Below, in pieces: positions 3,466-35,858 of a stretch of DNA of 64,000 nucleotides (position 1 is its first letter; each line of letters starts with the position of its first letter). The translations under genes and the position numbers were made by a program. The notes beneath the pieces are model-generated. The model saw nothing but the letters and a program-made list of their open reading frames with translations. It did no database searches and was not told where the DNA came from. The stretch is from positions 372,001-436,000 of the forward strand of contig NZ_CP059987.1 of the NCBI RefSeq assembly GCF_014483895.1, written 5' to 3'. The DNA comes from Protaetiibacter sp. SSC-01. Its GTDB lineage: Bacteria > Actinomycetota > Actinomycetes > Actinomycetales > Microbacteriaceae.

Positions 3466-3797
3466 TGGCCGACACCAAGAAGGCCGCCGTGAAGCCGGCG
3501 AAGGCCGGACACGAGTCCGCCGCCCACGACGTCAAGGACGCGGCCGCCCGTGGCTACCGCAAGGTGCGTCGCGGTTACGTGACGAGCGACAAGATGGACA
3601 AGACCATCGTCGTCGAGGTCGAGGACCGCGTGAAGCACCCGCTGTACGGCAAGGTCATCCGCCGCAGCTCGAAGATCAAGGCCCACGACGAGCAGAACTC
3701 GGCCGGCATCGGCGATCTCGTCGTCATCTCGGAGACCCGTCCGCTCTCGGCAACGAAGCGCTGGCGTCTCGTCGAGATCGTGGAGAAGGCGAAGTAA
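3465..3797 (+). CDS. rpsQ: 30S ribosomal protein S17
   Basis: 110-residue S17, an OB-fold 16S rRNA binder. The core from about residue 28 contains [20 protein letters not shown] and [19 protein letters not shown]. The first 27 residues (Lys/Ala-rich, with [19 protein letters not shown]) extend beyond the usual 80-90-residue protein, as in many actinobacteria. ATG 3465 overlaps the L29 stop by 1 nt. Confidence 0.97.
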
Positions 3798-3800
3798 CCC

Positions 3801-4169
3801 ATGATCCAGCAGGAATCCCGCCTCAAGGTCGCCGACAACACCGGCGCCAAGGAGCTCCTCACCATCCGCGTGCTCGGCGGCTCCGGCCGTCGCTACGCGG
3901 GCCTCGGTGACGTCATCGTCGCCACGGTCAAGGACGCGATCCCCGGCGGCAACGTGAAGAAGGGCGACGTGGTCAAGGCCGTCGTCGTCCGCACCAAGAA
4001 GCAGACGCGCCGTCCCGACGGCTCGTACATCAAGTTCGACGAGAACGCCGCCGTCATCCTGAAGAACGACGGGGACCCCCGCGGTACCCGCATCTTCGGA
4101 CCGGTCGGCCGTGAGCTTCGCGACAAGAAGTTCATGAAGATCATCTCGCTGGCGCCGGAGGTCATTTAG
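3801..4169 (+). CDS. rplN: 50S ribosomal protein L14
   Basis: 122-residue L14, which sits at the subunit interface and forms bridge B8. It begins with [20 protein letters not shown] and ends with [12 protein letters not shown], both textbook for the family; length exactly normal. First gene of the spc part of the superoperon, 3 nt after rpsQ. Confidence 0.98.
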
Positions 4170-4171
4170 TC

Positions 4172-4531
4172 ATGGCGAACATCAAGAAGGGCGACCTGGT
4201 CCAGGTGATCAGCGGCCCCTCGCAGGCCCGCGGCGGAGACCGCGGCAAGCAGGGTCGCGTCATCGAGGTCCTCGTCGACCAGAACCGCGTCGTGGTCGAG
4301 GGAGTCAACTACGTCACCAAGCACGTGCGCGTGGGCCAGACCCAGCGCGGCACGAAGACCGGTGGCATCGAGACGCACGAGGCCCCGATCCACGTGTCGA
4401 ACGTCGCGCTCGTCGACCCGAAGACCAAGAAGCCGACCCGCGTGGGTTTCCGTGAGGAGACCGTCGAGAAGGACGGCGTCAAGAAGACCGTTCGCGTGCG
4501 CTACGCGAAGAAGTCCGGAGAGAAGCTCTAA
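4172..4531 (+). CDS. rplX: 50S ribosomal protein L24
   Basis: 119-residue L24, an assembly initiator of the 50S subunit. The KOW motif lies at the N-terminus ([20 protein letters not shown]), followed by [20 protein letters not shown]. It starts 2 nt after rplN, and its TAA overlaps the ATG of rplE by 1 nt. Confidence 0.98.
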
Positions 4532-5109
4532 TGGCGAACGCGACTGCCGCGGTGGCTGGCAAGAACCAGCCCCGCCTGAAGCAGAAGTACCGTGACGAGA
4601 TCACCAAGTCCCTGACCGAGGAGTTCGGCTACGCGAACCCCATGCAGGTCCCGGGTCTCGTGAAGATCGTCGTCAACACCGGTGTCGGTGAGGCCGCTCG
4701 CGACTCCAAGGTGATCGACGGGGCCGTCAAGGACCTCACGCTCATCACGGGTCAGAAGCCGCAGGTCACCAAGGCCCGCAAGTCGATCGCCCAGTTCAAG
4801 CTCCGCGAGGGCATGCCCATCGGCGCCCACGTGACGCTCCGCGGCGACCGCGCGTGGGAGTTCCTCGACCGACTCCTGTCGCTCGCGCTCCCCCGCATCC
4901 GCGACTTCCGCGGTCTGAACCCGAAGCAGTTCGACGGCAACGGCAACTACACCTTCGGTGTGCAGGAGCAGTCGATCTTCCACGAGATCAACCAGGACCA
5001 GATCGACCGCGTCCGCGGCTTCGACATCACGGTCGTCACCACCGCCAAGACGGATGACGAGGGTCGCGCCCTGCTGCGCGCGCTCGGCTTCCCGTTCAAG
5101 GCGGAGTAA
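4531..5109 (+). CDS. rplE: 50S ribosomal protein L5
   Basis: 192-residue L5, the 5S rRNA-binding protein of the central protuberance. Motifs include [20 protein letters not shown] and [20 protein letters not shown], and the C-terminal [12 protein letters not shown] is typical. In most bacteria rpsN follows directly; here 108 non-coding bases lead straight to rpsH. Confidence 0.98.
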
Positions 5110-5167
5110 CACCCACCCACCCGCGGAGCTCGGCTCGCCGAGACCCGCACGAACCGAAGAAGGTCGG

Positions 5168-5221
5168 ATGCCGGTGAACCGGCTCCGAAACCGCCCAGGA
5201 AAAAGGAAACCAACGAAATGA
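5168..5221 (+). other. 17-codon basic mini-ORF in front of rpsH
   Basis: The rplE-rpsH gap holds an ATG-initiated frame of 17 codons, starting [17 protein letters not shown]. Its stop TGA overlaps the ATG of rpsH (ATGA), as coupled genes do. The upstream GAAGAAGGTCGG could serve as ribosome binding site. It shows no CXXC zinc pair and no S14 similarity, so it is not a recognisable rpsN remnant. It may be a chance frame that contains the rpsH ribosome binding site (AGGAAAAAGGAAAC), or a leader peptide. Confidence 0.25.
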
Positions 5222-5616
5222 CGATGACAGACCCGGTCGCAGACATGCTGACCCGTCTGCGCAACGCGAACCGTGCTTACCACGACACGGTCGCGCTTCC
5301 GAGCAGCAAGCTCAAGACCCACATCGCGGAGATCCTCAAGCGCGAGGGCTACATCGCCGACTGGAAGGTCGAGGACGCGCGCGTCGGCCAGACGCTCACG
5401 ATCGACCTCAAGTACGGCCCGAACCGCGAGCGGTCGATCGCCGGCATCAAGCGCGTCTCGAAGCCGGGTCTGCGCGTCTACGCGAAGTCGACCGAGATCC
5501 CCCACGTGCTGGGCGGCCTCGGTGTGGCGATCCTGTCCACCTCCTCCGGTCTGCTGACCGACCGTGAGGCGAGCAAGAAGGGCGTCGGCGGGGAAGTCCT
5601 CGCCTACGTGTGGTGA
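5218..5616 (+). CDS. rpsH: 30S ribosomal protein S8
   Basis: 132-residue S8, a 16S rRNA binder that in many bacteria is also the translational repressor of the spc operon. The start [18 protein letters not shown] and the C-terminal [18 protein letters not shown] are diagnostic. ATG 5218 is chosen because it gives the conserved N-terminus and has AGGAAA upstream. Confidence 0.98.
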
Positions 5617-21431: not shown

Positions 21432-22145
21432 TCAGCCGTCCTCTTCGCCCGCCGCGCTCACCGACACGATGCCGCGCGTCTCGGAGAGCTGTGAGATGAG
21501 CTCGTCGGGGGAGGCCCGACGCCGGTGGGTGAAGGTGATGTTCGCCTCGACGATCGTGTGCCCCTTGGGTGTCTCGAACTTGCGGGTCTGCAACAGCGCG
21601 ATCTTGTAGCCGAGGCGCGTCGCGGTCTCGACGATGACACGCATGACGCCGCGGTTCTCGCGGTAGCGCACGACGAGGGTCTCGCCCGTGTCGGACCGGG
21701 GGATGCGCCGCGCGGCGTAGCTGAGCGCCGTCACGGCGAGGAAGTACAGCAGGGTCGAGATGATCGCGAGCCCCGGCATCCCGGCCCCGCATGCCATGCC
21801 GATCGCGGCCGTGACCCAGACGGATGCGGCTGTCGTGAGCCCGTTGACGACGTTCTGCCGCACGAAGATGACGCCCGCGCCGAGGAAGCCGATACCCGAC
21901 ACGATCTGCGCCGCGATGCGCGAGGGGTCGACGATCGTGTCGGGGCCGACTGTGTGGCTGAAGCCGTAGGCCGAGACGAGCGTGAAGATCGCCGAGCCGA
22001 GGCCGACGAGGGTGTGCGTCCGCACGCCCGCGCTCTTGAGGCGGCGCTGCCGTTCGGCGCCGATGCTCGCGGACAGCACGAACGCGAGGCTCGCGAGCAC
22101 GACCTCGGTCAGCAGGGTCTCGCTGAAGAGGTCGAACTGCAGCAT
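21432..22145 (-). CDS. MgtC/SapB family membrane protein
   Basis: 237 residues. The N-terminal ~135 residues hold about four to five membrane segments with the MgtC signature: SIGAERQRRLKSAGVRTHTL, then GSAIFTLVSAY and GFLGAGVIFVRQNVVNGLTT. The C-terminal ~90 residues are a soluble ACT-like domain. MgtC proteins help growth at low Mg2+ and influence ATP synthase or membrane potential; transport itself is unproven. Convergent with the SorC-type regulator gene (6 nt apart). Substrate or role here unknown. Confidence 0.85.
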   Translation of the reverse strand: MLQFDLFSETLLTEVVLASLAFVLSASIGAERQRRLKSAGVRTHTLVGLGSAIFTLVSAYGFSHTVGPDTIVDPSRIAAQIVSGIGFLGAGVIFVRQNVVNGLTTAASVWVTAAIGMACGAGMPGLAIISTLLYFLAVTALSYAARRIPRSDTGETLVVRYRENRGVMRVIVETATRLGYKIALLQTRKFETPKGHTIVEANITFTHRRRASPDELISQLSETRGIVSVSAAGEEDG

Positions 22146-22296: not shown

Positions 22297-23766
22297 ATGG
22301 AGCACGTCACACGTCGAGGAGTTCTCGCCGGAGGTCTCGGGGCCGCGGTCGGCGCGGCCGCATCGCACGGCTGGGGGCGCGCATCCGGCGCCCAGGCCGC
22401 CCAGGCCGCGATGGCGGTGAGCAGCGTGCCGGGCGTCCACCACGTCGCCGACTTCGGGGCAGTCGGCGACGGCGTGACGGATGACACGGCAGCTCTGCAG
22501 GACGCCCTCGACGCCGCGGCGGGCGCGAGCCTCTTCTTCGACGCCGCGGTCTACGTCGTGAGCGCGGCGCTCATGGTCAAGCAGGGCACGATGCTCCACG
22601 GGCGCGGCGCCACCATCACGCGCGCGCCCTCCTACGGCGCGGAGCTGCTCGGCAACTGGTCGCTCACCGACACGACCACGACCGCCTACAACGGGCACGG
22701 CGACATCACGATCGAGGGCTTCACCTTCGACGGCGACGGCCGGGCGCTGCCCGCGAACATGGTCTCGTTCGTGCACTGCGAGAACATCGTCATCCGCGAC
22801 TGCACCTTCCTCGACTGCACCGCGATGCACCACCTCGAGCTCAACAGCACGCGGCACGCCCTCGTCGAGAACTGCCGGTTCCTGGGCATGCGGCCCGACG
22901 CCACCATCAGCGTGCGCAAGGAGGCCATCCAGATCGACCGCGCGCATCCGACACTCGGGATGGGCGGGGCACCCGACGGCACGATGTCGGCCGACATCAC
23001 GATCGTCAGCTGCTACTTCGGGCCGTCGGCGAGCTACCTGGCCCCCGCGATCGCGGTCGGCACGCACCAGGAGGCGCCCGCGGGGAGCATCTACCGGAAC
23101 ATCCGCGTGCTCAACTGCGTCGGCGAGGCGCTCACCCACGCCGGCACGCGGTGGGTCAACACCGAGGGCCTCCGTGTGATCGGCAACGAGTTCACGCTCA
23201 CGCGCCGCCCCACGCCCGTCGCGGACGGCGAGTCGGACGCGATGCTCTACGGCTTCGCCTGCACCGTGAGCACCGACGTGCTCGTGGCCGACAACCGCTT
23301 CGTCGTGGAGCCGGGCGAGAAGGCGATCTCGGTCGACATCCGCAAGGACTCGTCGTGGGCACAGGTGATCGGCAACATGCTCCGCTACGGCCGCTATGCC
23401 CTCTTCGTCGAGAACTCGAACGACACGAGCTTCCGCGACAACTACTGCCTGAGCCACAACTACGACGGCGTGCACCTGCGCAGCACGCGTCGCGCGCACA
23501 TCTCGACGAACACCTTCCACAACACGGGGGCCAACGGCGCGATCGCGGTCGTCGAAGGCAGCGGCACGAACGGCAACGCGATCTGGAACAGCTTCGACAG
23601 CAACGTCGCCCAGTACACGGGCAGCGTCAGCGCGCCCGCCGTCGGGGTCGTGTGCGATGTCTCGACCTCGCAGGGCACCTCGGTGCGGATGAACCGCTTC
23701 CGGCAGGTGCCGACCGTCCACTCCGGCTCGACGAGCGACGTCGTCGCCTACAACACCACCAACTAG
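22297..23766 (+). CDS. Tat-exported right-handed beta-helix protein (pectate lyase superfamily)
   Basis: 489 residues. The N-terminus has a Tat-type signal (TRRGVLAGGLGAAVGAAASH) with an Ala-rich cleavage region near residue 35. The mature part begins with the pectate_lyase_3/GH28-like signature VADFGAVGDGVTDDTAALQD, and then shows repeating beta-helix rungs rich in N and I/V (for example NIVIRDCTFLDCTAMHH, RVLNCVGEALTHAG, NTFHNTGANGAIAVVEG). Such folds occur in polysaccharide lyases, hydrolases, epimerases and phage tailspikes; the catalytic residues cannot be assigned. Paired with a second Tat-exported protein 20 nt downstream. Confidence 0.8.
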   Translation: MEHVTRRGVLAGGLGAAVGAAASHGWGRASGAQAAQAAMAVSSVPGVHHVADFGAVGDGVTDDTAALQDALDAAAGASLFFDAAVYVVSAALMVKQGTMLHGRGATITRAPSYGAELLGNWSLTDTTTTAYNGHGDITIEGFTFDGDGRALPANMVSFVHCENIVIRDCTFLDCTAMHHLELNSTRHALVENCRFLGMRPDATISVRKEAIQIDRAHPTLGMGGAPDGTMSADITIVSCYFGPSASYLAPAIAVGTHQEAPAGSIYRNIRVLNCVGEALTHAGTRWVNTEGLRVIGNEFTLTRRPTPVADGESDAMLYGFACTVSTDVLVADNRFVVEPGEKAISVDIRKDSSWAQVIGNMLRYGRYALFVENSNDTSFRDNYCLSHNYDGVHLRSTRRAHISTNTFHNTGANGAIAVVEGSGTNGNAIWNSFDSNVAQYTGSVSAPAVGVVCDVSTSQGTSVRMNRFRQVPTVHSGSTSDVVAYNTTN

Positions 23767-23786: not shown

Positions 23787-25133
23787 ATGACCACCATCAA
23801 CCGTCGCGGACTCCTGCTCGGAGGCCTCGGCGTCGCCGCCGGTGCCGCGGGTGCCGTCGCGCTCGACACCGCCGCCGCGGCGCCCGCCGTCGCCGCCGCC
23901 AGCGCGGGCGCCACCGTCGCACAGTCGGCCGCACCGTCCAGTGCGGCCGGCCGCGCGCTCGCGGCCGGCTCGGCCGGGGTCTTCAACCCCTTCCTCCGCC
24001 AGTCGACGCTCTACTCCTACGGCCACAGCTTCACGGTCGTGCCGAGCCCGTACTGCACCCCCGACCGGGGCGAGTACCCGCTCCGACTCAAGGAGCTCAT
24101 CGGCTTCGCCGACGTCGTGCCCTTCGGCCGCGGCGCCACCTACCTGCCCGACACGCTCGCGCTCGCCCTCAACGGCATCCGGGCGACCGACAAGGACCGC
24201 ACGTGGCCGGGCCTCGCCACGATCGCGTCGTCCGAGCACGCGCACGGCGTCAACAACGACCCCGACCACAGGTCGATGCCGCGCGGCGTCGTGACGATCC
24301 AGAACTACCTCAACGAGACGGGCGACACGCACCCGTGGGCGCACACACCCGAGTACGTCGAGTTCTGGTCGCATTGCCTGCGTTCGCTCATCGCCGTCGT
24401 GTCGAGCAAGGGGCAGAAGGCGAGCACGGTGGATGTCGGCTCGACCGCGCCGGGCGGGCACGCCTGGCAGACGATGTCGTCGGCGCAGTACGTCAACATG
24501 TTCCCGGGAGGACACCTCTTCCGCTCGAACCAGGTGGGCGACTGGCGGCAGTTCAGGGTGAGCGGCGACGAGTGCTGGATCCTGATCTTCGCGGCGCTGT
24601 CGACGACGGCCACCCGCGGCCTCGACGTCTACGTGGGGAACACCAAGATCCAGGAGATCGACCCGACGGGCATGATGGCGCCCTACACCTCGGTGATCGC
24701 CGATTCGGCGGGCCTCAACCTCTGGCCGCTCGCCGTGCGTGTGACCGGCCTCAACGCGGCCGCGGGGACCGCCGACTTCAAGACGGTGCAGGTGCGGGTC
24801 GCCAACCGCGGCAGCGGCTGGGGCTTCCTGTCGACCGCGCTGTTCCCGCGGAAGACGCCGCCCGAGGTCTTCGTCGCGTACGAGCCGGTGCGGCGCAACG
24901 TGACGGACTGGCCGGCCCGCACCGCGATGTACCGGGCCGCCATCGACCAGGTCGTCTCGGAGTTCACGAACGTGCACGCCGTCGATCTCGAGGACGGCTG
25001 GGATCTCGAGGCGATGACGCTCGCGGGCGACATCCACCCGAACGACCGCGGGCAGGTGCACATCGCCGACCGCTTCGTCGAGGCGATCAACGACAACGTC
25101 ACCGACTTCACGAACGGCATCGCGATCATCTGA
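23787..25133 (+). CDS. Tat-exported SGNH/GDSL-type hydrolase
   Basis: 448 residues. The signal NRRGLLLGGLGVAAGAAGAV is Tat-like, followed by a ~30-residue Ala-rich stretch. The SGNH fold is suggested by block I YSYGHSFTVVPSPY (Ser of GHS as nucleophile) near residue 80 and by the C-terminal block GDIHPNDRGQVHIADRF holding the catalytic His. A ~100-residue insert in the middle (DWRQFRVSGDECWILIFAAL to TADFKTVQVRVANRG) looks like a beta-sandwich. Likely an esterase, for instance a deacetylase of extracellular polysaccharide. It forms an operon with the beta-helix gene, hinting at joint action on one polymer. Confidence 0.7.
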   Translation: MTTINRRGLLLGGLGVAAGAAGAVALDTAAAAPAVAAASAGATVAQSAAPSSAAGRALAAGSAGVFNPFLRQSTLYSYGHSFTVVPSPYCTPDRGEYPLRLKELIGFADVVPFGRGATYLPDTLALALNGIRATDKDRTWPGLATIASSEHAHGVNNDPDHRSMPRGVVTIQNYLNETGDTHPWAHTPEYVEFWSHCLRSLIAVVSSKGQKASTVDVGSTAPGGHAWQTMSSAQYVNMFPGGHLFRSNQVGDWRQFRVSGDECWILIFAALSTTATRGLDVYVGNTKIQEIDPTGMMAPYTSVIADSAGLNLWPLAVRVTGLNAAAGTADFKTVQVRVANRGSGWGFLSTALFPRKTPPEVFVAYEPVRRNVTDWPARTAMYRAAIDQVVSEFTNVHAVDLEDGWDLEAMTLAGDIHPNDRGQVHIADRFVEAINDNVTDFTNGIAII

Positions 25134-25147
25134 TCGCGGGCGGCGGC

Positions 25148-25963
25148 TCAGCCCGTCACGACCTCGGGCGCGAGCTCCGCGACGTGGAGGCCCGGATGCC
25201 GTGCCGTGAGAGTCGAGAGGGTGTCGGCATCCGTGCCGTCGTCGACGACGAGGTCGGTGAAATCGCTCAGCGGAGCGACGGAGTGCAGCGCCGTGCGGCC
25301 GATCTTGTGGTGGTCCATGAGCAGCACGCTGCGGTCGGAGGCCGACATCATGGCCCGCTTGACGAGCACGACGTCCTGCTCGGAGTGGAAGGCCTGCGTC
25401 GTCGACATGGCCGACGTCGAGGAGAAGTGGATGTCGGCCCGCACGCGCGCGACGGCGTCGATGCAGGGGAGGCCGAGGTAGGCGTCGTGCCCGGCGGAGT
25501 ACACGCCGCCGAGCATGATGAGGCGCACCTCGTCGCGCCCCTTGAGCACCTCCACGATCTCGGGGAAGTTCGTGATGACCGTGAGGGGGGCGATGTCGAC
25601 GAGCTCGTGCGCGAGCGCGAGCGTCGTCGTGGAGTCCTCGAGCAGCACGACCATGCCGGGCTCGACGAGCGACGCGGCGGTGCGCGCGATCGCGGACTTC
25701 TCGGCACGGGCCGAGCGGGACCGGAAGTGGATGCTCGAGTCGAACACCGCCGACGGCAGCGCCGTCACGCCGCCGTAGTACTTCTGCACGATGCCCGCCT
25801 TGACGAGCTGGTCGATGTCGCGGTGGGCGGTCATGAGGCTCACGCCGAAGATCTCGGAGATCTGCTGCGGCGAGACCGAGCCCTCGCGCATGACGAGGTC
25901 GGCGAGCTCGCTCTGGCGGTCGGCCGGCGAGAGTCGGCGCAGCGCCTGGGGATGCTGGGTCAT
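25148..25963 (-). CDS. DeoR/GlpR family repressor (AccR-like position)
   Basis: 271 residues. N-terminal DeoR HTH at ~15-70 (RQSELADLVMREGSVSPQQI, then FGVSLMTAHRDIDQLVKAGI), followed by the DeoR C-terminal sensor fold with EDSTTTLALAHELVD, VITNFPEIVEVL and SATSxxx-like SSTSAMSTTQAFHSEQD. These proteins repress sugar or sugar-phosphate operons until a phosphorylated intermediate binds. It is divergent from the transporter-phosphatase-phosphodiesterase operon, the same arrangement of repressor class as accR in the Ti plasmid acc operon. GAGGAGAG supports the ATG at 25963. Confidence 0.9.
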   Translation of the reverse strand: MTQHPQALRRLSPADRQSELADLVMREGSVSPQQISEIFGVSLMTAHRDIDQLVKAGIVQKYYGGVTALPSAVFDSSIHFRSRSARAEKSAIARTAASLVEPGMVVLLEDSTTTLALAHELVDIAPLTVITNFPEIVEVLKGRDEVRLIMLGGVYSAGHDAYLGLPCIDAVARVRADIHFSSTSAMSTTQAFHSEQDVVLVKRAMMSASDRSVLLMDHHKIGRTALHSVAPLSDFTDLVVDDGTDADTLSTLTARHPGLHVAELAPEVVTG

Positions 25964-26170
25964 GTCTCTCCTCGAGGTCCGATCATGTGGCGCCTCAACC
26001 TAACAACGTCTTTGTGATAGTCCTGGGGCCGCCCGGAGAAGCCGCGCGGGTACTTAACACTACTGCTCCGAATCGCGGAGCGCGACATCCGATCGCGTCG
26101 GCCTCTAGGTACCCGTGTGCCCACGATTTCTGAGGGTTCTTGACGGTCGGAACTTCCTTCTCGCCGAGGA

Positions 26171-26230
26171 TTGGACGTATCGCATACTGCGTGGTAACTT
26201 CGCACCATGCTTGTGATGATGCCAGCATGG
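26171..26230 (+). promoter_or_regulatory. Promoter and palindromic operator of the acc-like operon
   Basis: -35 TTGGAC (26171-26176), 18-bp spacer, -10 TAACTT (26195-26200). Directly downstream, at the expected start of transcription, lies a perfect 7-bp inverted repeat CCATGCT (26205-26211) / AGCATGG (26224-26230) with a 12-bp centre beginning TGTGATGATG. A related TTTGTGATAG stands near the DeoR gene at 26011-26020. The layout fits repression by the divergent DeoR protein. The remaining 287-bp intergenic DNA has a small GCTCCG-AATCG-CGGAGC hairpin (26065-26081) but no gene. Confidence 0.5.
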
Positions 26231-26250
26231 ACTCGGGGGGAGCCCGCCGC

Positions 26251-27126
26251 ATGACGCTTTCCAGCGCGAAGCCCGGCGCCGCCACCGACGCCCTGCCCGC
26301 GGCGCCCGCCTCCCTCGGATCCGAACTGCTCGGCATCGCCCGGCGAGCCGCCCAGGCGGCCGGAGCCGAACTGCTCGCCCGCGCCGACCAGCCCCACCGC
26401 GTCTCCACCAAGTCGAGCCCGACCGACCTCGTGAGCGAGGCCGACAGCGTGGCCGAGACCGTCATCCGCGAGACCCTCCTGGGCGCTCGCCCCGACGACG
26501 GCTTCGTCGGCGAGGAGGGCTCGCGCGACGGCGGCAGCACGGGCATCACGTGGGTCGTCGACCCGCTCGACGGCACCGTCAACTACCTCTTCGGCGATCG
26601 CGAGTGGTCGGTCAGCATCGCCGCCGTCGACGCCGACGGCCCGCTCGTCGGCGCCGTCATCGAGCCCGTCACCGGACGGATGTGGACCGGCATCCGCGGC
26701 GAGGGCGCCTGGCGCGACGACGTCGAGATCAGCGCCCGCCGCACGCCCGAGCTCGCCGACGCGATGGTGCTCGCGGGCCTCTCGTACGACGCGGCCCAGC
26801 GTCGCCGCCAGATGGAGATGTTCACCGACGTCGCCCCCGGCGTGCGCGACCTGCGCCGGCACGGCAGCGCCGCGCTCGAGCTGTGCCGCGTCGCAGAGGG
26901 CACGGCCGACGCCTACGTCGAGTCGCCCATCTTCCGCTGGGACATCGCCGCGGGCGCGCTCATCGCGCGCGAGGCCGGCGCGCGCGTGCACGTCACGCAC
27001 CTCGACGAGGTGCGCCGCTCGGTGCTCGCCGCGACCCCGTTCATCTTCGAGGAGCTGCTCATGCTCCTGCAGACGAGCGATTTCGGCGCCGAGTTCTTCA
27101 ACGTCGAGCAGGTGAACCCGCAGTAA
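26251..27126 (+). CDS. Inositol-monophosphatase family phosphatase (AccG-like)
   Basis: 291 residues. Mg2+-dependent phosphatase fold with all metal-site motifs: GEEG (VGEEGSRDGG), DPLDGTVNYLFGDREW and WDIAAGALIAREAGARV. The family removes phosphate from inositol phosphates, histidinol phosphate or other sugar phosphates; substrate cannot be read from sequence. ATG 26251 follows GGGGGAG at a good distance; ATG 26227 is an alternative that would fall inside the operator. First gene of the operon; its stop overlaps the permease start (TAATG). In the acc operon the equivalent enzyme (AccG) acts on the sugar phosphate released by the phosphodiesterase. Confidence 0.88.
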   Translation: MTLSSAKPGAATDALPAAPASLGSELLGIARRAAQAAGAELLARADQPHRVSTKSSPTDLVSEADSVAETVIRETLLGARPDDGFVGEEGSRDGGSTGITWVVDPLDGTVNYLFGDREWSVSIAAVDADGPLVGAVIEPVTGRMWTGIRGEGAWRDDVEISARRTPELADAMVLAGLSYDAAQRRRQMEMFTDVAPGVRDLRRHGSAALELCRVAEGTADAYVESPIFRWDIAAGALIAREAGARVHVTHLDEVRRSVLAATPFIFEELLMLLQTSDFGAEFFNVEQVNPQ

Positions 27127-28055
27127 TGGCCGCCTACATCGCCCGCCGGCTGCTCCTCTCGGTCTTCGTGCTGTGGGGCACGGTCAGCCTCGTCTTCGTC
27201 GTCATGCGCCTCGTGCCGGGCGACCCCGCGCTCATGATCCTGGGTCCGGATGCGCAGCTCGGCGAGCTCGAGGCCCTTCGGAAGCAGATGGGCCTCGACC
27301 AGCCCGTCATCCTGCAGTACCTCAACTACCTCTGGGGCGCGCTGCAGCTCGACTTCGGCGACTCGGTGCGCCTCGGCGGCGACGCCATGAGCCACGTGCT
27401 CGGACGGATGCCGCTCACGCTCGTGCTCGCGGCCGCCGCCCTCGTCGTCGCGGTCGTGGTCGGCGTCTCGATGGGCATCCTCGCGGCCCTCAACTTCGAC
27501 ACCCGGATCGACCGCACCGTCACGACGCTCTCGCTCGTGACGCACTCGGCGCCGTCGTTCTGGGTCGGCCTCGTGCTCATCCTCATCTTCGCCCGGCAGC
27601 TGCAGGTGCTCCCGAGCGGCGGCGCGGGCACCTTCGCCCACCTCGTCCTCCCCGCGCTCGCGGCGGGCCTCCCGTTCTCGGCGACGCTCACGCGCTTCAC
27701 GCGCTCCGGTCTGCTCGAGGTCGTCAACGAGGGCTACATCCAGACGGCCCGCTCGAAGGGCCTCTCGGAGCGCATCGTGATCGTCGCCCACGCCATCCGC
27801 AACTCGCTCATCCCGATCGTCACCGTCGTCGGCCTCTACGCGGGCGGCATCCTCGGCGGCACGGTCGTCATCGAGACGGTGTTCTCGTGGCCGGGCATGG
27901 GCCGACTCATCGTCGACTCGATCGGCTACCGCGACTACGCGGTCGTGCAGGCGGGAATCGTGCTCATCACCTTCGTCTTCGTCGCGATCAACCTGGTCGT
28001 CGACGTCCTCTACGGGTACCTCGACCCGCGCGTGCGATTGGCAGGGAAGCGATGA
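27126..28055 (+). CDS. ABC transporter permease, peptide/opine family (DppB type)
   Basis: 309 residues, six predicted membrane segments. N-terminal YIARRLLLSVFVLWGTVSLV and FVVMRLVPGDPALMILGP are DppB/OppB hallmarks, and the EAA-type loop lies at TARSKGLSERIVIVAHAIRN, where the ATPases dock. Pairs with the DppC-type permease that overlaps its 3' end by 4 nt. Imports an oligopeptide-like or opine/sugar-phosphodiester-type solute, depending on the binding protein at 31073. Confidence 0.93.
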   Translation: MAAYIARRLLLSVFVLWGTVSLVFVVMRLVPGDPALMILGPDAQLGELEALRKQMGLDQPVILQYLNYLWGALQLDFGDSVRLGGDAMSHVLGRMPLTLVLAAAALVVAVVVGVSMGILAALNFDTRIDRTVTTLSLVTHSAPSFWVGLVLILIFARQLQVLPSGGAGTFAHLVLPALAAGLPFSATLTRFTRSGLLEVVNEGYIQTARSKGLSERIVIVAHAIRNSLIPIVTVVGLYAGGILGGTVVIETVFSWPGMGRLIVDSIGYRDYAVVQAGIVLITFVFVAINLVVDVLYGYLDPRVRLAGKR

Positions 28056-28957
28056 CCGGGGTCACGGAAAGCACGCTCACGCCCACGGCGGCGCTCGCCG
28101 TGGCGCCCACGCGGGAGCGCGCACGCAAGCGCGGCAGCCTCCGCATCGGCGTCTCGATCGGCATCATCGCGCTCTACCTCGTGGCGGCCATCGTCGGCCC
28201 CATCCTCGTGCAGTTCGACCCGGTCGCGACCGACACCGCCAACCGGCTGCTGCCGCCGTTCGCGACGCGCCAGGACGGCTCGATCGCCCTCTTCGGCACC
28301 GATCAGGTCGGCCAGGACCTCTTCGCCCAGACGCTCCAGGGCGCCCGGATGTCGATGCTCGTGGGCGTCTCGGCGCTCATCATCGCGGGCGTCATCGGCG
28401 TGCTGATCGGCATCTTCTCCGGCTACTTCGGGGGCGTCGTCGACTCGGTGCTCATGCGCCTCGCCGACGTGCAGCTCGCCTTCCCCGGCATCCTGCTCGC
28501 CGTGCTCGTCGCATCCGTGCTCGGGCAGAGCGTCGTCAACGTCATCATCATCCTCGCGATCGGCGGATGGGTGACCTACGCCCGTGTGACGAGGAGCCAG
28601 GTGCTCGCGACGAAGAACCGCGAGTTCGTCGACGCGACGCGCACCCTCGGCGCCGGGCACTGGCACACCATCCGCACGACGATCCTCCCCGCGTGCGTCG
28701 CACCCGTCATGGTCATCGCGACGATGGACATCGGCAGCATCATCCTCGCGGAGGCGTCGCTGTCGTTCCTCGGACTCGGCACCCCGCCGTCGACCCCCAG
28801 CTGGGGCCTCACGATCGCCGGCGGCCGCAACTACCTCGCGAGCGCGTGGTGGATCTCGACGATCCCCGGCATCTGCCTCGCCATCCTCGTCATCGCGTTC
28901 GGCGTCCTGGGCGACGCGCTGCGCGACCGCTTCGACCCCCGCCTGAAGGAGGTGTGA
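28052..28957 (+). CDS. ABC transporter permease, peptide/opine family (DppC type)
   Basis: 301 residues. The short cytosolic N-terminus leads to TM1 (GVSIGIIALYLVAAIVGPIL), then the DppC motif FGTDQVGQDLFAQTLQGARM, the docking loop VDATRTLGAGHWHTIRTTIL, and the signature ASLSFLGLGTPPSTPSWG. Together with the preceding gene it forms the membrane channel. Five nt separate it from the first ATPase gene. Confidence 0.93.
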   Translation: MTGVTESTLTPTAALAVAPTRERARKRGSLRIGVSIGIIALYLVAAIVGPILVQFDPVATDTANRLLPPFATRQDGSIALFGTDQVGQDLFAQTLQGARMSMLVGVSALIIAGVIGVLIGIFSGYFGGVVDSVLMRLADVQLAFPGILLAVLVASVLGQSVVNVIIILAIGGWVTYARVTRSQVLATKNREFVDATRTLGAGHWHTIRTTILPACVAPVMVIATMDIGSIILAEASLSFLGLGTPPSTPSWGLTIAGGRNYLASAWWISTIPGICLAILVIAFGVLGDALRDRFDPRLKEV

Positions 28958-28962
28958 GCCCG

Positions 28963-30000
28963 ATGTCGGAAGCTCTCACGACGCTGCTCGAGCAGCCGCG
29001 TCCGGATGCGGGAGACGGGCCGCTGCTGTCGGTCCAGGATCTCGCGGTGTCGTTCGGGGCCCAGCGCGGCCGCGTGCGCGTGGTCGACGGGCTCTCGTTC
29101 GACATCCACCCGGGTGAGACGGTCGCGGTGCTCGGCGAGTCCGGCAGCGGCAAGAGCGTGACGGCGCAGACGATCATGGGCCTGCTGCCCAAGCCGATCG
29201 GCCGCGTCGACGCGGGCCGCATCCTCTACCGAGGGGTCGACCTGCTGCAGCAGCCGGCGAGCTACACGCGCTCTCTCGGCGGCACCGAGATCGCCATGAT
29301 CTTCCAGGACCCGCTGAGCTCGCTCAACCCGGTCATGCGCGTGGGCGCGCAGATCGGCGAGGCCATGCGGCGCCGCGCCGGGGTCTCCCGGCGGGAGGCC
29401 CGCGAGCGCGCGATCGAGCTCATGGAGCGCGTCGGCATCCCCGCGGCCCGCCGCCGCGTCGACGACTTCCCGCACCAGTTCTCGGGCGGCATGCGCCAGC
29501 GCGTCATGATCGCGATGGCGCTCGCCCTGCGGCCGTCGCTCATCATCGCCGACGAGCCGACGACCGCGCTCGACGTCACGGTGCAGGCGCAGATCATGGC
29601 GCTCCTCGCCGAGGTGCAGGAGCTCGACGGCACCGCCCTGCTGCTCATCACCCACGACCTCGGGGTCGTGGCGGATGTCGCCGACCGCACCGTCGTCATG
29701 TACAGCGGGCGCGTGGCCGAGAGCGGCGCGATCCGCGACGTCTACGACCGCCCCGCCCACCCGTACACGGTCGGGCTCATGGCCTCCGTTCCGGACCTCG
29801 AGGGTCCGCGCGGACGCCTCACCCCGATCGAGGGCTCGCCGCCCGACCCGCGGCGTGTCCCGCAGGGCTGCCCCTTCCACCCGCGCTGCCCCATGGCCGT
29901 CGCCCTGTGCGCAGAGGTGCGGCCCGAGCCGCGCGAGATGCCCGGGCGCACGGCACTCCACCTGTCCGCCTGCCACCGCGCCGAGGAGGTCGGAGCATGA
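28963..30000 (+). CDS. ABC transporter ATPase, peptide/opine family (DppD type)
   Basis: 345 residues. Walker [18 protein letters not shown] (near residue 65), Q-loop [13 protein letters not shown], signature [15 protein letters not shown], Walker [15 protein letters not shown] and switch His in [16 protein letters not shown]. The C-terminal oligopeptide-transporter extension contains the [15 protein letters not shown] cysteine cluster (possible Fe-S). Overlaps the next ATPase gene by 4 nt (ATGA). Confidence 0.95.
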
Positions 30001-31025
30001 CCCTCACGACCCCCACGCGGAGCGCGGTCCCCTCGGCGGCGGGCGAGCCGCTGCTGAGCGTGCGCGAGCTGCGCACGACCTTCCCCATCCGCTCGAACGT
30101 GCTGCGACGCAAGGTGGGCGAGATCGGCGCCGTCGACGGCGTGAGCTTCGACATCATGCCGGGGGAGACCTACGGCCTCGTGGGCGAGTCCGGTTCCGGC
30201 AAGTCGACCGTCGCACGCACCATCATCGGCCTCGAGACGCCGACGTCGGGCACGATCCGCTTCGACGGACGCGACCTCACGACGGTGCGCGGCGCGGCTC
30301 TCAAGAGCGTCCGCCGGGACATCCAGATGATCTTCCAGGACCCGCACGCTTCGCTCAACCCGCGCCGCACGGTCGTCGACATCGTGAGCGAGGGATGGCA
30401 GGTGCAGCCCGGCTTCGGGCCGCGCGGCAGCTGGCGGCAGAGCGCGCTCGAGCTGCTCGACCGCGTGGGGCTCAACCCCGACCACGCCGACCGCTACCCG
30501 CACCAGTTCTCGGGCGGGCAGCGCCAGCGCATCGGCATCGCCCGCGCCCTCGCGATGCGGCCGAAGCTCATCATCTGCGACGAGGCGGTCTCCGCGCTCG
30601 ACGTGTCGATCCAGGCGCAGGTGCTCAACCTCCTGCAGGATCTGCAGGCCGAGATGGGGCTCTCGTACCTCTTCATCGCCCACGACCTCGCGGTCGTGCG
30701 GCACATCTCCGACCAGGTCGGCGTCATGTACCTCGGCAAGCTCGTCGAGTCGGGCAGCTACGAGCAGATCTTCGCCGAGCCGCTGCACCCCTACACGCAG
30801 GCCCTGCTCTCCGCGATCCCCGTCACGCATCCGTGGCGCCAGGACCGCCGCGAGCGCATCGTCCTCAGCGGCGACATCCCCTCGCCGGCCGACCCGCCAT
30901 CCGGATGCCGCTTCCGCACCCGCTGCTGGATGGCCCGGGACATCTGCGCAGAATCCGTGCCGGCGCTCGCCCGACGCGGCCACGACCATCCCGACGCCTG
31001 CCATCTCACGGGGGAGCCCGAGTGA
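29997..31025 (+). CDS. ABC transporter ATPase, peptide/opine family (DppF type)
   Basis: 342 residues. Walker [19 protein letters not shown], signature [17 protein letters not shown], Walker [19 protein letters not shown], and the C-terminal cysteine region [15 protein letters not shown]. Partner of the DppD-type ATPase in a heterodimer. The short N-terminal extension carries the usual [15 protein letters not shown]. Next gene starts 47 nt downstream after a GAAAGGAAAA ribosome binding site. Confidence 0.95.
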
Positions 31026-31072
31026 AGGCGGCACCACGCAAGTCCCATGTCACACACCGAAAGGAAAACACC

Positions 31073-32587
31073 ATGAGCGTCACCCGACGCAGTCTCGGCG
31101 CGATCGCGATCGCGGTCAGCGCCCTGCTCACGCTCGGCGCGTGCGCGAACACGGGGTCCGACGGCGCGCCCCTCGCGGAACAGCAGGATCTCAAGGTCGG
31201 TCTGGCATCGCTGCCGATCAACCTCGACGTCCTCCAGAACTCGGCCGAGGGCAAGATCATCGGGCCCATGCAGCACGTGCTCGAGCCGCTCGTCAAGCGC
31301 GACGGCGACTCGTTCGAGCCGTGGCTCGCCGAGTCGTGGGAGAACCCCGACGACCTCACGTGGGTCTTCACCATCCGCTCGGACGTGAAGTTCAGCGACG
31401 GCACGGTCCTCACCGCCGAGGACGCGCGTGCGTCGCTGCGACGACTCATCGACACGGAGTCGCCGCTGGCGCCGCTGCTCGCCGCCGTCGAGAACATCGA
31501 GGCGACCGACGACTCGACCCTCACGATCGAGACGAAGACCCCGCTGGGAACCCTGCTGACGACGCTGTCGCAGATCCTCATCGGGCAGGGCGCGGTCATC
31601 AACGACGAGGCCTACTGGGCCAAGCCCATCGGCACCGGTCCCTTCGTGATCGACGAGTTCGTCGCCGACCAGCGCTTCGCGCTCAGCCGCAACGACGACT
31701 ACTGGGGTCCGGAGACGAAGCTCGACACGATCACCTACATCGGCATGCCCGAGGAGGCGGCGCGCATCTCGGCGCTCTCGACGGGTGAGGTCGACATCAT
31801 CGACGGAGTGAGCCCCGACGCCATCCCGGAGGTGCAGTCGCTCGACTCGGTGACGTTCGAGTCGGTGCCGAGCTACGCGATCCAGTACATCTGGTTCAAC
31901 AGCAGCCGCGAGCCCTACACCGACGTGCGGGTGCGCCAGGCGCTCTGGCACGCGCTCGACCTCGAGCAGATCGTGAGCGACCTCTACGGCGACCAGGCAT
32001 CCGTCGCGCAGGCGCCGGTTCCGCAGGCCGTGTTCGGCGCAGCCAAGCTCGAGCCCTACACCTACGACCCGGAGCTCGCGAAGGAGCTCCTCGCCGAGGC
32101 GGGCTACCCCGACGGGTTCTCGACGACGATGCAGTTCTCGAGCAGCACGGGCGTGCCGCCCTTCATGCAGACGGTCATCTCCTACTGGGCCGAGATCGGC
32201 GTGACCGTCGAGCCGCTGCCCAAGGAGCAGGCCATCTGGCTCGACGACCTGCTCGCGCTCAACTGGGACATGAACGTGCAGTCGCCGTCCGTCACGAGCG
32301 GTGACGCCGACTACCACCTCGGCCGTCTCTACGTGAGCAGCGCGAACCGCCTCGGTTACGCCAACCCGGAGTACGACGCCCTCGTCACGGCCGCCCGCGA
32401 GTCGGTCGACCAGCAGGAGCGCATCTCGCTCTACGCGGAGGCCTCGAAGATCCTCTGGGAGGATGCGCCCGCCATCTGGGCCGCCGACCAGACCGCGAAC
32501 GTCGCCTACCGCGACTACGTGACCGGTGTGACGATCGACGCGGGCAACCGCAACGACTACAGCGCCGTCGTGCTCCGTGCGAAGTGA
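31073..32587 (+). CDS. Family 5 solute-binding lipoprotein (AccA-like position)
   Basis: 504 residues. Lipoprotein signal [19 protein letters not shown] ending in LGAC with Cys-24 as lipidation site. Family 5 (peptide/nickel/opine) signatures follow: [32 protein letters not shown] and [20 protein letters not shown]. The ligand is not evident. In the acc operon the matching protein (AccA) binds a sugar phosphodiester, agrocinopine, and the antibiotic agrocin 84. The gene lies after the ATPases rather than first, unlike the Ti plasmid order. Confidence 0.92.
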
Positions 32588-32645
32588 ACGGCGACGGGTA
32601 CACCCGGCGCCGCACGGAACGACCGAGAACCAGATCGGAAGTGGA

Positions 32646-34031
32646 ATGAACGACACGATTCACGTCGACACGCAGGCGCGTGTGCGGGCGACGCCCGAGG
32701 TGCTCGTGGTCGGCGGGGGTCCCGCGGGGATCGGGGCAGCCATCGCCGCCGCGCGCCGCGGGGCCCGCACGATGCTCGTCGAGCAGCAGGGGTACCTGGG
32801 AGGGAATCTCACGGCGGGCCTGGTCGGCCCGTGCATGACCTCCTACAGCCTCGACGGCTCGAAGCAGCTGATCCGCGGGATCTACGACGAGCTGATCCTG
32901 CGGATGGAGGCCGCCGGTGAGGCGATTCACCCGTCGAAGGTGCCGGCGGGCAGCCCGTTCGCCGGATTCATCTACCACGGGCACGACAAGGTCACGCCGT
33001 TCGAGCCGGAGGGCATGAAGCTCATCGCGCAGCGGATGTGCCTCGAGGCGGGCGTGGAGCTGCTGTTCCACACCTTCGTCGTCGACACGATCGTCGAGGA
33101 CGGCGCCGTCCGCGGCGTCATCGTCGCCAGCAAGTCCGGGCTCGAGGCGATCACGGCCGACGTCGTGATCGACTGCTCCGCGGATGCGGACGTCGTCGCC
33201 TTCGGCGGCGGCGAGACCGTGACGGGACGCGAGGGCGACGGGCTCGTGCAGCCGATGACGCTCTTCTTCCGGGTGGGAGGTGTCGACGACGACGTCCTCG
33301 CGGACTACGTCGCGCAGTTCCCCTCGAAGACGGATGCGTTCGAGGTGCCGGTGCAGGCCGCTCGCGCCGCGGGCGAGTACACGATCGAGCGGAGGGGTCT
33401 CGGCTTGTACAAGACCCTCAAGCCGGGCGTGTGGCGCGTCAACACGACCCGCATCCTGCGCCGTGTCGGCACCGACGTGGGCGACCTCACGCAGGCGGAG
33501 ATCGAGGGTCGCGAGCAGGTCACCCAGCTCATGCGCCTCTTCCGGCGCGTGCCCGGCATGGAGAACTGCGAGCTCATCGACACGGCCGCGACGATCGGCG
33601 TCCGTGAGACCCGCAGGATCGTGGGCGAGTACACCCTCACTCACGAGGATCTCGCCAACGGGCAGGAGTTCGACGACGTCATCGCGCTCGCGGGGTACCC
33701 GATCGACATCCACAGCCCGACCGATTCCGGTGGCGGCCTGATCGACATGCCGGTCGCGAACGAGTACCAGATCCCGTACCGCTCCCTCGTGCCGAAGGAG
33801 CTCGACGGGGTGCTCGTCGCGGGGCGGAGCGTCTCGTCGACGCACGAGGCCCTCGGCGCGATCCGGATCATGCCGCCGGCCTTCGCGATGGGCCAGGCCG
33901 CCGGTACCGCCGCCGCTCTCGCCGTGCGCGGGGGCGCGCGGCCCCGGGACGTCGACGTGACGGAGCTGCAGAAGGCTCTCGTCGAGGACGACGCCTACAT
34001 CGGGGAGCGCGCGATGGAGCTGGTGCCGTGA
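32646..34031 (+). CDS. FAD-dependent oxidoreductase (FAD_oxidored family)
   Basis: 461 residues. Rossmann FAD-binding start [20 protein letters not shown] near residue 19, then [35 protein letters not shown], the family block [19 protein letters not shown], and a C-terminal FAD contact around [19 protein letters not shown]. No export signal, so cytoplasmic. Substrate unknown; it may oxidise the alcohol part of the imported compound. There is no counterpart in the Ti plasmid acc operon, making it the distinctive member here. GTG of the next gene overlaps its stop by 4 nt. Confidence 0.87.
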
Positions 34032-34750
34032 CAGCCGTTCCCCCGCGTGTCCGGGATGGCGGGCATCCGCGCATCTCCGGGCACCGGGGGGCGGCCGGCA
34101 CCGAGCCGGAGAACACCGTCCGGTCGTTCCAGCGGGCCATCGCGCTCGGGGCGGGCACCGTCGAGCTCGACCTGCAGCGCTCGGCGGACGGCGAGCTCAT
34201 CGTCATCCACGACGAGACCGTCGACCGCACGACCGGCGGCGCGGGGCGGGTCAACGACCTCACCCTGGCCGACATCCGGCTCCTGCGCGCCGACGGCGAG
34301 CCCGTGCCGACGTTCACCGAGGTGCTCGACTCGATCGACGCGCCCATCCAGGTGGAGGTCAAGGATCCGCTCGCGGTCGAGCCGCTCATCGCGCTGCTGC
34401 GGGCTCGGCCCGAGATCGGCCGCAGGGTCGTGCTCTCGGGCTTCTCCGAGGAGGTGCTGCGGCAGCTCGCCGAGGCCGTCCCCGACGTGCCGCGCGGCCT
34501 CATCTGCCGGGGCTACGAGGAGGGGCTGCTCGGCAGGCTCGCGGACCTCGGATGCGAGGTCGTCTACTCGGGCTGGCCCGGTCTCACGGTCGAGACGGTC
34601 CAGGCGCTGCACGACGCGGGGGTGTCGATCGCGGCCTGGAACGTCAACACGCGCGAGGAGCTCGCGCTCGCGCTCGCGCTCGGCGTGGACGAGATCTCGT
34701 CCGACTTCCCGGGTGAGGTGGCGCGCTGGTTGGGATCCGCGTCGGGCTGA
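34028..34750 (+). CDS. Glycerophosphodiester phosphodiesterase family protein (AccF-like)
   Basis: 240 residues. GDPD TIM-barrel motifs are complete: [20 protein letters not shown] (catalytic His, Glu-Asn), [20 protein letters not shown] (metal Glu/Asp and second His), VEVK ([14 protein letters not shown]) and the C-terminal [20 protein letters not shown]. No signal peptide, so it works on imported substrate. The family splits glycerol-3-phosphate or sugar-phosphate diesters; in the acc operon the related AccF opens agrocinopine. GTG 34028 overlaps the FAD enzyme stop. Last gene of the operon, followed by a bidirectional terminator. Confidence 0.9.
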
Positions 34751-34822: not shown

Positions 34823-35815
34823 TCAGCTCTCGAGCGCGATCTGCGCCTTGAGGGCGGCACCGTTTGCGACGGCGTCGAGCGCGGTGGCGAACTCCTCGAG
34901 CGGGTAGGTGTGCGAGAGCAGCGCGTCGACGTTCACGACGCCGCGGGCCACGAGGTCGAGGGCCGCGTCGAAGCTGTGCAGCACGGCCATGGTGCCGATG
35001 ATCGTGATCTCGTCGTTGTAGATCTCGAACGGCGACACCTCGAGGCGCGCCTCGGCGGCGGCGACGCCGAACACCTGCAGGCGGCCTCCGCGGTCGAGGG
35101 CGCCGAGCGCCGCGGCCATCGCGGCGGGGGCGCCCGTGACGTCGACAGCGGCGTCGAAGCGGCGCGTCGAGAGCTCCTCGACGGAGGTGCCGACCTCGAC
35201 GGCGCCGAGCTCGAGCGCGGCGGCGGCCTTCGCAGCGACGCGGTCGACGACGCTGACGACCGCGCCGCCTGCCGTGAGCAGCTGCGCGACGATGAGCCCC
35301 ATCGGACCCGCGCCCATGACGAGCATGCGCTCGCCGGCCTCGACGCCCAGGCGGCGCACGCCGTGCACGGCGCACGAGACGGGCTCGACGAACGCGCCCT
35401 GCGCGAAGGTCATCGAGTCCGGCATCCGGTAGCAGTTCGCGGCGGGCACGGCGACGTACTGTGCGAACGCGCCGTCGACGGTGTCGCCGATGGCGCCCCA
35501 GTCGGCGCACAGGTTGCCGCGCCCGCGGCGGCACTGCGCGCACTTGCCGCAGAAGAGCGAGGGGTCGACGGCGACCCGCTGGCCCACGAGGCCCGCATCG
35601 ACTCCGGCGCCGACCGACGCGATCGTGCCCGCGAACTCGTGGCCCGGGATGATCGGGAACGGGGTGGGCGGGAACTCGCCCTTCACGATGTGGAGGTCGG
35701 TTCCGCAGATGCCGACCCGGGCAACCTCGACGATCACCTCCCCGTCGCGGGGGGTGGGGTCGTCGACCTCGGTGACCTCGATCTGGCCCGGCCGCGGGAG
35801 CAACACTGCACGCAT
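34823..35815 (-). CDS. Zinc-dependent medium-chain alcohol/polyol dehydrogenase
   Basis: 330 residues from the ATG at 35815. Catalytic zinc site VGICGTDLHIVKG and PGHEFAGTI, structural zinc cysteines in FCGKCAQCRRGRGNLC, and NAD(P)-binding MLVMGAGPMGLIVAQLL. It resembles sorbitol/threonine dehydrogenase types acting on secondary alcohols of sugars and polyols. An in-frame ATG at 35833 would add six residues but sits against the operator at 35829-35858, so 35815 is preferred. Convergent with the acc-like operon; it may oxidise a product of that pathway, or belong with the beta-helix/SGNH genes that share its operator motif. Confidence 0.88.
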   Translation of the reverse strand: MRAVLLPRPGQIEVTEVDDPTPRDGEVIVEVARVGICGTDLHIVKGEFPPTPFPIIPGHEFAGTIASVGAGVDAGLVGQRVAVDPSLFCGKCAQCRRGRGNLCADWGAIGDTVDGAFAQYVAVPAANCYRMPDSMTFAQGAFVEPVSCAVHGVRRLGVEAGERMLVMGAGPMGLIVAQLLTAGGAVVSVVDRVAAKAAAALELGAVEVGTSVEELSTRRFDAAVDVTGAPAAMAAALGALDRGGRLQVFGVAAAEARLEVSPFEIYNDEITIIGTMAVLHSFDAALDLVARGVVNVDALLSHTYPLEEFATALDAVANGAALKAQIALES

Positions 35816-35828
35816 GGGTTCCGCCAAT

Positions 35829-35858
35829 CTCATCTGATACGTCTGCGTATCATCTGAG
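35829..35858 (-). promoter_or_regulatory. 30-bp operator-like palindrome before the alcohol dehydrogenase gene
   Basis: Reading + strand: CTCA-TC-TGATACG-TCTG-CGTATCA-TC-TGAG, an 11-bp-arm palindrome (arms CTCA and TGATACG). Its complement has the same CTCAGATGATAC and TCAGATGAG blocks as 22211-22240 with identical 9-bp spacing. It overlaps or adjoins the start of the dehydrogenase gene, a place suited to repression. Confidence 0.6.

Follow-up and report, generated by a model that had tools for sequence, protein, structure and literature searches.

The window analysed here, a 64,000-nucleotide stretch of the single-contig, 2.96-Mb genome of Protaetiibacter sp. SSC-01 (NZ_CP059987.1, positions 372,001 to 436,000), carries a tight run of eight genes that stands divergent to a gene for a DeoR-family repressor. 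We propose, with a probability of roughly 0.6 and on the basis of sequence comparisons, that this is a DeoR-controlled operon for the uptake and breakdown of a small polyol- or sugar-bearing phosphodiester of the glycerophosphodiester or sugar-phosphodiester class. Two groups of relatives carry this reading, namely those of the binding protein, most of which stand beside genes for a phosphodiesterase-class and a phosphatase-class enzyme, and those of the repressor, which stand beside a phosphodiesterase-class gene and at half of the places a phosphatase-class one as well.

The layout given in a preliminary description of this DNA was recovered in full, and all nine reading frames are intact and confirmed by Pfam (Table 1), each assignment lying above the curated cut-off of its model (HTH_DeoR with DeoRC, Inositol_P, BPD_transp_1 twice, ABC_tran with oligo_HPY twice, SBP_bac_5, FAD_oxidored, and GDPD). 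On the plus strand the order is a phosphatase of the inositol-monophosphatase family (IMPase), DppB, DppC, DppD, DppF, a family 5 binding lipoprotein, a PF12831 oxidoreductase dependent on flavin adenine dinucleotide (FAD), and a phosphodiesterase of the GDPD family. The gaps between consecutive genes, from IMPase to GDPD, are −1, −4, +5, −4, +47, +58, and −4 bases; the IMPase and DppB genes thus overlap by 1 base and the FAD and GDPD genes by 4 bases. DPLDGT, GEE, and WDIA motifs were found in the IMPase, GHRG, ELDL, and IHD motifs in the GDPD protein, a Walker A and a signature motif in both ATPases, and the lipobox LGAC in the binding protein, all of which we take to be the functional ones. 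The IMPase-family protein remained under the cut-off of every NCBIfam model that it matched. As no signal peptide was seen by eye, the operon GDPD is presumably cytoplasmic. A sigma-70-like site was not found in the divergent promoter region (25964..26226).

Phylogenetic analysis placed the binding protein in one clade with the proteins of G004 (a genome of the window's own genus), G017, and the f38 genomes (10 rows, support 100/99; 9 rows and 98/99 without G004). A phosphodiesterase-class match and a phosphatase-class match both lay no more than 8 kb from the binding-protein gene at eight of the nine other clade loci vs. none of the 19 loci outside the clade, some rows of this count having flanks shortened by contig or locus ends. 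Seven of the nine clade loci are tree rows (six of them positive), and L170 and L171 were placed on account of their resemblance to L169 and an identity of 50%. Outside the clade, thirteen loci are tree rows and six (L178, L181, L183, L098, L069, and L070) were assigned by similarity; for L069 and L070 the score was taken from a second, distant binding protein, as the nearer one is broken by the contig end. The enzymes at the eight positive loci are an EEP-family protein (PF03372) and a histidine phosphatase (PF00300), which belong to families unrelated to GDPD and IMPase.

The nearest binding proteins found (50–52% identity) come from seven f38 genomes, and at all seven loci matches to a histidine phosphatase and an EEP-family protein stand directly 5′ of the binding-protein gene (Pfam was run on L167 and L172 for both enzymes and on L168 for the phosphatase only, the remaining loci being scored by similarity). 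At L167 the histidine phosphatase, EEP, and binding-protein genes overlap by 4 bases each. The run in G004 starts with DppB, DppC, DppD, DppF, histidine phosphatase, EEP, and binding protein and continues with DUF6772, a PF12831 protein (35% identical to that of the window), DUF6385, and a polyol dehydrogenase, which matches the NCBIfam model of D-arabinitol 4-dehydrogenase best, though under its cut-off. The f38 and G004 operons share with the window an orthologous-looking transporter (binding protein 43–52%, other subunits 58–73%), a phosphodiesterase-class and a phosphatase-class enzyme and, in G004, a PF12831 gene. They differ from it in having EEP for GDPD and histidine phosphatase for IMPase, in the LacI or IclR genes nearby in place of any DeoR match, and in the presence of DUF6772 and DUF6385.

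The EEP protein occurred in three of 183 genomes of the class, every time at a clade binding-protein locus, and G534 and G004 add two places. Its sequence retains N, E, H, DxN, and SDH, which we assume to be the EEP signatures. No solved relative was found for the G534 protein at E 0.01, and the G880 protein gave no match in the plasmid collection.

Similar company was seen for the repressor. The window DeoR is the sister (support 100/98) of a DeoR in G534, whose gene has a divergent CUT1 transporter on one side and a pair of histidine phosphatase and EEP on the other, this EEP being 51% identical to that of f38. The DeoR search gave fourteen further places, eight in the clade of the window DeoR (support 95/96) and six outside it; L134 and L135, clade members reached by the GDPD search, were left out of this count. 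A GDPD or EEP match was present within 8 kb at all eight in-clade places. At the six outside places, some of them on short contigs, no GDPD, EEP, or metallophosphoesterase was matched (0/6), and one has a histidine phosphatase. A common motif between the divergent promoter region and that of the sister DeoR, looked for as an operator, did not rise above shuffled controls. Taken together, the enzymes beside the binding-protein relatives (8/9) and beside the DeoR relatives (8/8) support the import, cleavage, and dephosphorylation of a phosphodiester proposed in the preliminary description, as well as the view that a phosphodiesterase-class and a phosphatase-class enzyme would belong to this transporter.

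GDPDs at 40–44% identity occur in actinobacterial CUT1 (Ugp-like) loci with a DeoR gene, where 'Ugp-like' is a name by gene class and does not imply a ligand. These loci resemble the window in DeoR (39–52%), GDPD and, at three of them, IMPase (40–42%), and differ from it in the binding protein and permeases, which belong to another transporter family (CUT1, not Dpp). The three loci with IMPase (L127, L128, and L222) hold DeoR, GDPD, IMPase, and RpiB together, two of them also an FGGY kinase, and a GlpD-like dehydrogenase lies near each (classified at L127, by eye at L128 and L222). Four combinations of transporter and enzymes can thus be told apart by neighbourhood, CUT1 or Dpp, each paired either with GDPD and IMPase or with EEP and histidine phosphatase; the window, like acc in Agrobacterium, joins Dpp to GDPD and IMPase. 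That the ligand may contain a polyol or a sugar is suggested by the polyol dehydrogenase in G004 and, at the CUT1 loci, by the genes for RpiB, FGGY, and a GlpD-like protein.

We infer the biochemical steps, their order, the ligand, the inducer, and the regulation as follows. The lipoprotein would capture the intact diester outside the cell and DppBCDF would import it, whereupon the GDPD would split it by hydrolysis in the cytoplasm, yielding an alcohol and a phosphomonoester, and the IMPase-family enzyme would strip the phosphate from the latter. The PF12831 flavoenzyme might oxidise one of the released polyols or sugars; its place as the last step of the pathway is our guess. The phosphomonoester is probably the signal sensed by the DeoR, as it is for AccR in Agrobacterium. 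Two unrelated enzyme pairs on one transporter type would indicate the type of bond in the ligand ahead of the ligand's identity, a handle that is missing from the plain annotation of family 5 transporters.

Alternatively, the transporter and the FAD enzyme could handle an ordinary non-phosphorylated sugar, polyol, or glycoside, with GDPD and IMPase as housekeeping passengers engaged in lipid diester turnover, which we consider unlikely. This explanation draws on the PF12831 relatives, found at 42 named loci (41 at 56–65% identity, one as a short match; L071 is the contig stretch of L054, whose protein was in the FAD query). Their neighbours vary between CUT1 sugar, MFS-like (by eye), and Dpp transporters. 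A related binding protein accompanied by a Dpp-type set is present at L069, L070, L071, L092, L098, and L106, the start of a DppB gene lies at the contig end of L067, and L073 has a more distant Dpp set. A GDPD match was found at none of the 42 loci, the flanks being short in some (4.2 kb at L089, for example), and weak matches were seen to IMPase at L107 and to histidine phosphatase at L099. Since relatives of the FAD gene stand with varied transporters and without GDPD, this gene alone says little on a phosphodiester. G797 has the run LacI-FAD(67%)-DppB-DppC-binding protein(43–46%)-DppD-DppF with neither enzyme. Moreover, the nearest GDPDs (60–64%, in G387 and G564) sit by themselves, surrounded by unrelated genes, which favours independent recruitment of the operon GDPD, or its being a passenger. 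In the tree the window GDPD groups with these two (L124 and L125; support 97/89).

Against passengers on a plain-sugar transporter speak the 4-base overlap of the FAD and GDPD genes, the EEP and histidine phosphatase in the closest binding-protein clade and likewise beside the DeoR sister, and the other GDPDs that the genome already holds. Three more GDPD matches lie elsewhere in the genome (37%, 34%, and 42% over 64 residues), and the operon GDPD is therefore an extra copy. Across eight congeneric genomes, matches reach at best 34–36% for the GDPD and 42% for the FAD gene, and the binding-protein matches in congeners are at 38% in G005 (in a listing that does not hold every congener) and 43% in G004. 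Given these low values, the operon is not a trait of the genus.

Several observations weigh against the phosphodiester reading, as do the varied FAD neighbourhoods and the stand-alone GDPDs described above. A second copy of the combination GDPD, IMPase, and Dpp, with or without the FAD gene, was found in no opened actinobacterial locus. The search for the whole set covered, from the FAD side, 60 relatives and the 42 named loci; from the binding-protein side, 299 genomes of the family and 394 of the class; from the GDPD side, 60 relatives and 396 genomes of the order; and from the IMPase and DeoR sides, 297 genomes of the order each. These draws are of sampled species under E-value limits, and part of the listed places was opened (4 of 45 on the IMPase side, not counting places already contained in other loci). 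The opened IMPase relatives (L220 and L224-L226) sit in mixed contexts. The preliminary description had held that its proposal would fall if the GDPD and IMPase genes were not conserved with the transporter in related genomes, and no opened relative was found to keep them with it; instead, the enzymes beside the opened transporter relatives come from unrelated families, though their two activity classes are the same.

The enzyme counts are open to objection as well. The EEP, histidine-phosphatase, and metallophosphoesterase queries were drawn from the same loci that they scored, and such queries could overlook further enzyme families beyond the clade. This is so at L105 (Propionibacteriaceae metagenome-assembled genome, 9042-13613), where a PF12831 gene at 60% to that of the window stands between a type I phosphodiesterase gene before it and a metallophosphoesterase gene after it, the latter protein also having a PQQ-like propeller domain, and where both enzymes escaped the query proteins. 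G017 lies inside the binding-protein clade and has no phosphodiesterase or phosphatase match within 7–8 kb. As the seven f38 loci are one lineage, the clade offers few independent cases (the window, G004, and f38), and the EEP frame of one f38 genome (G777) holds one stop. The EEP superfamily comprises phosphodiesterases, nucleases, and phosphatases, so that a phosphodiesterase role for this protein is our own extrapolation. In the DeoR clade, a phosphatase match was present as well at only four of the eight places.

An importer of peptides, nickel, or a metallophore with unrelated enzymes attached is very unlikely in our view. The family 5 fold allows for it, the best NCBIfam matches of the binding protein are of NikA and Opp types, far under their cut-offs, and peptide binders are among its best Foldseek matches. 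Yet the protein did not fall into one clade with DppA, NikA, GsiB, and OppA, the E. coli rows being long branches, and the clade neighbours are phosphoesterases and polyol or sugar genes. The position of DppA Asp408, presumably a peptide-binding residue, is Thr in the window protein and Gly in seven aligned f38 proteins, as read from a sequence alignment at low identity. The grouping with plain peptide binders that the preliminary description had named as a possible objection was accordingly not seen, and the equivalent of Asp408 is absent. An AlphaFold model built from six sequences (mean predicted local distance difference test score, pLDDT, 71.6) confirmed the fold class of family 5. The model was of too low a quality for pocket work, and its root-mean-square deviation to the 50 listed Foldseek matches was 12–15 Å. 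The best Protein Data Bank matches listed were a family 5 protein whose title gives no ligand, followed by peptide and glutathione binders, and among the matches listed AgaA was at rank 23 and the AccA entries came from rank 39 on.

The gene classes of the acc operon on the Ti plasmid of Agrobacterium fabrum C58 (accR, accA-E, accF, and accG) equal those of the window. As the preliminary description had pointed out, DeoR, a family 5 protein, Dpp permeases and ATPases, GDPD, and IMPase recur here in one run. The same classes make up an acc-like region of another Agrobacterium plasmid. According to the excerpted text of PMC4526662, these gene classes serve agrocinopine in Agrobacterium, AccR interacts with the AccF product, and the AccA side chains N54, N284, Y375, Y376, S419, and E510 help hold pyranose-2-phosphate. 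At these positions the window protein carries G, A, T, G, D, and N (0/6 kept), and in the Agrobacterium acc-like protein five of the six are retained; the numbering was anchored on 12 of 13 named residues in a sequence alignment at low identity, not in a structure. AccA and two Agrobacterium acc-like proteins form a clade of their own (100/99) and the window protein falls in another, also at 100/99. AccR pairs with the other Agrobacterium DeoR (99/98), outside the window DeoR clade. AccF and its group were placed next to the GDPD group of the window, L124, and L125 on an unsupported branch (19/74). The window further differs from acc in gene order, in its extra PF12831 gene, and in being chromosomal and actinobacterial. 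Kinship with acc was thus not upheld for the binding protein and the DeoR, and orthology of the binding protein to AccA was rejected on the strength of the tree and the pocket residues. The resemblance at the level of gene classes is most likely convergent, and the window system is probably an acc-like one that was assembled independently. A genuine acc system, dedicated to agrocinopines or to other compounds with pyranose-2-phosphate, is hardly credible: the shared gene classes and the unsupported AccF placement are outweighed by the separate AccA clade with its lost anchoring side chains, the AccR placement, and the different gene order.

Agrocinopine and two Curtobacterium genomes are mentioned in the excerpted text of PMC10745273, from which the words accA and accF are absent, and GpxB and UgpB, as far as the excerpt of PMC12718374 goes, are of other transporter families. 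Among the titles and abstract openings listed by a literature search with subscription journals and preprints outside its scope, no paper on such an actinobacterial system was found. One Agrobacterium plasmid locus (L136) carries two similar binding-protein genes (768-2321 and 3774-5333), each after a DeoR gene, before an acc-like operon, and two GDPD genes.

More tentatively, and with doubt somewhat outweighing confidence, we suggest that Actinobacteria may have a family of phosphodiester-uptake operons with exchangeable transporter and enzyme cassettes, feeding on a polyol or sugar diester unrecognised as a nutrient (e.g., from cell-wall teichoic acids or phospholipid head groups), of which the window version would have reached the layout of the Ti-plasmid acc operon by convergence. 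If so, actinobacterial scavenging of phosphodiesters would have converged with opine uptake, a pathway would be found for the EEP and PF12831 genes, and an entry port of the kind used by agrocin 84 in Agrobacterium would be suggested.

Table 1. Features of the operon region, in window coordinates.
Feature	Coordinates	Strand	Evidence
DeoR-family repressor, divergent	25148..25963	-	Pfam HTH_DeoR and DeoRC
Divergent promoter region	25964..26226	.	intergenic
Inositol-monophosphatase-family phosphatase	26251..27126 (start 26227 or 26251)	+	PF00459, 195 bits
DppB-type permease	27126..28055	+	PF00528, PF19300; 58-63% to f38 and G004 transporters
DppC-type permease	28052..28957	+	PF00528; 62-69% to f38 and G004 transporters
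DppD-type ATPase	28963..30000	+	PF00005, PF08352; 60-73% to f38 and G004 transporters
DppF-type ATPase	29997..31025	+	PF00005, PF08352; 64-69% to f38 and G004 transporters
Family 5 solute-binding lipoprotein	31073..32587	+	PF00496 (SBP_bac_5), 295 bits; lipobox
PF12831 FAD-dependent oxidoreductase	32646..34031	+	PF12831 (FAD_oxidored), 437 bits
GDPD-family phosphodiesterase	34028..34750	+	PF03009, 128 bits
Zinc alcohol dehydrogenase, convergent, 3′ of operon	34823-35833	-	

Some recurrent neighbours were seen in the loci of the relatives. DUF6772 genes, accompanied by DUF6385 in several cases, recur with the Dpp transporter group (L244 10791-13433, L053, L057, L166-L172, and L176), and a literature search on DUF6772 found no paper. 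L220 (6097-12278), in G267 of the same family, groups a CUT1 transporter with DeoR, GDPD, and a metallophosphoesterase, the last being a third phosphoesterase type in such a setting. A recurrent protein near DeoR-GDPD-CUT1 genes (L220 7591-8970, minus strand; L128 7738-8670, plus strand; L126; L223; and L134) contains PF21311, a phage receptor-binding propeller domain. It is annotated as teichoic acid biosynthesis protein C in a Streptomyces record, and a link of these loci to teichoic acids is possible.

Upstream of the operon in the window, genes for two secreted-looking proteins (22297-23766 and 23796-25133, plus strand) end just before the DeoR gene. The first has a pectate-lyase-like beta helix, and the pair includes a weak GDSL-lipase match under the cut-off. 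No relatives of the pair were found in the fetched loci, save a weak 31% match of the first protein in L181. These proteins could release the substrate outside the cell. An MgtC-family gene (21432-22145, minus strand) lies 3 kb from the operon DeoR, and a relative at 56% adjoins the DeoR-GDPD-CUT1 locus in G490 and G331 (L126 13350-14027; L223 14005-14682); MgtC and phosphodiester uptake may be linked through phosphate.

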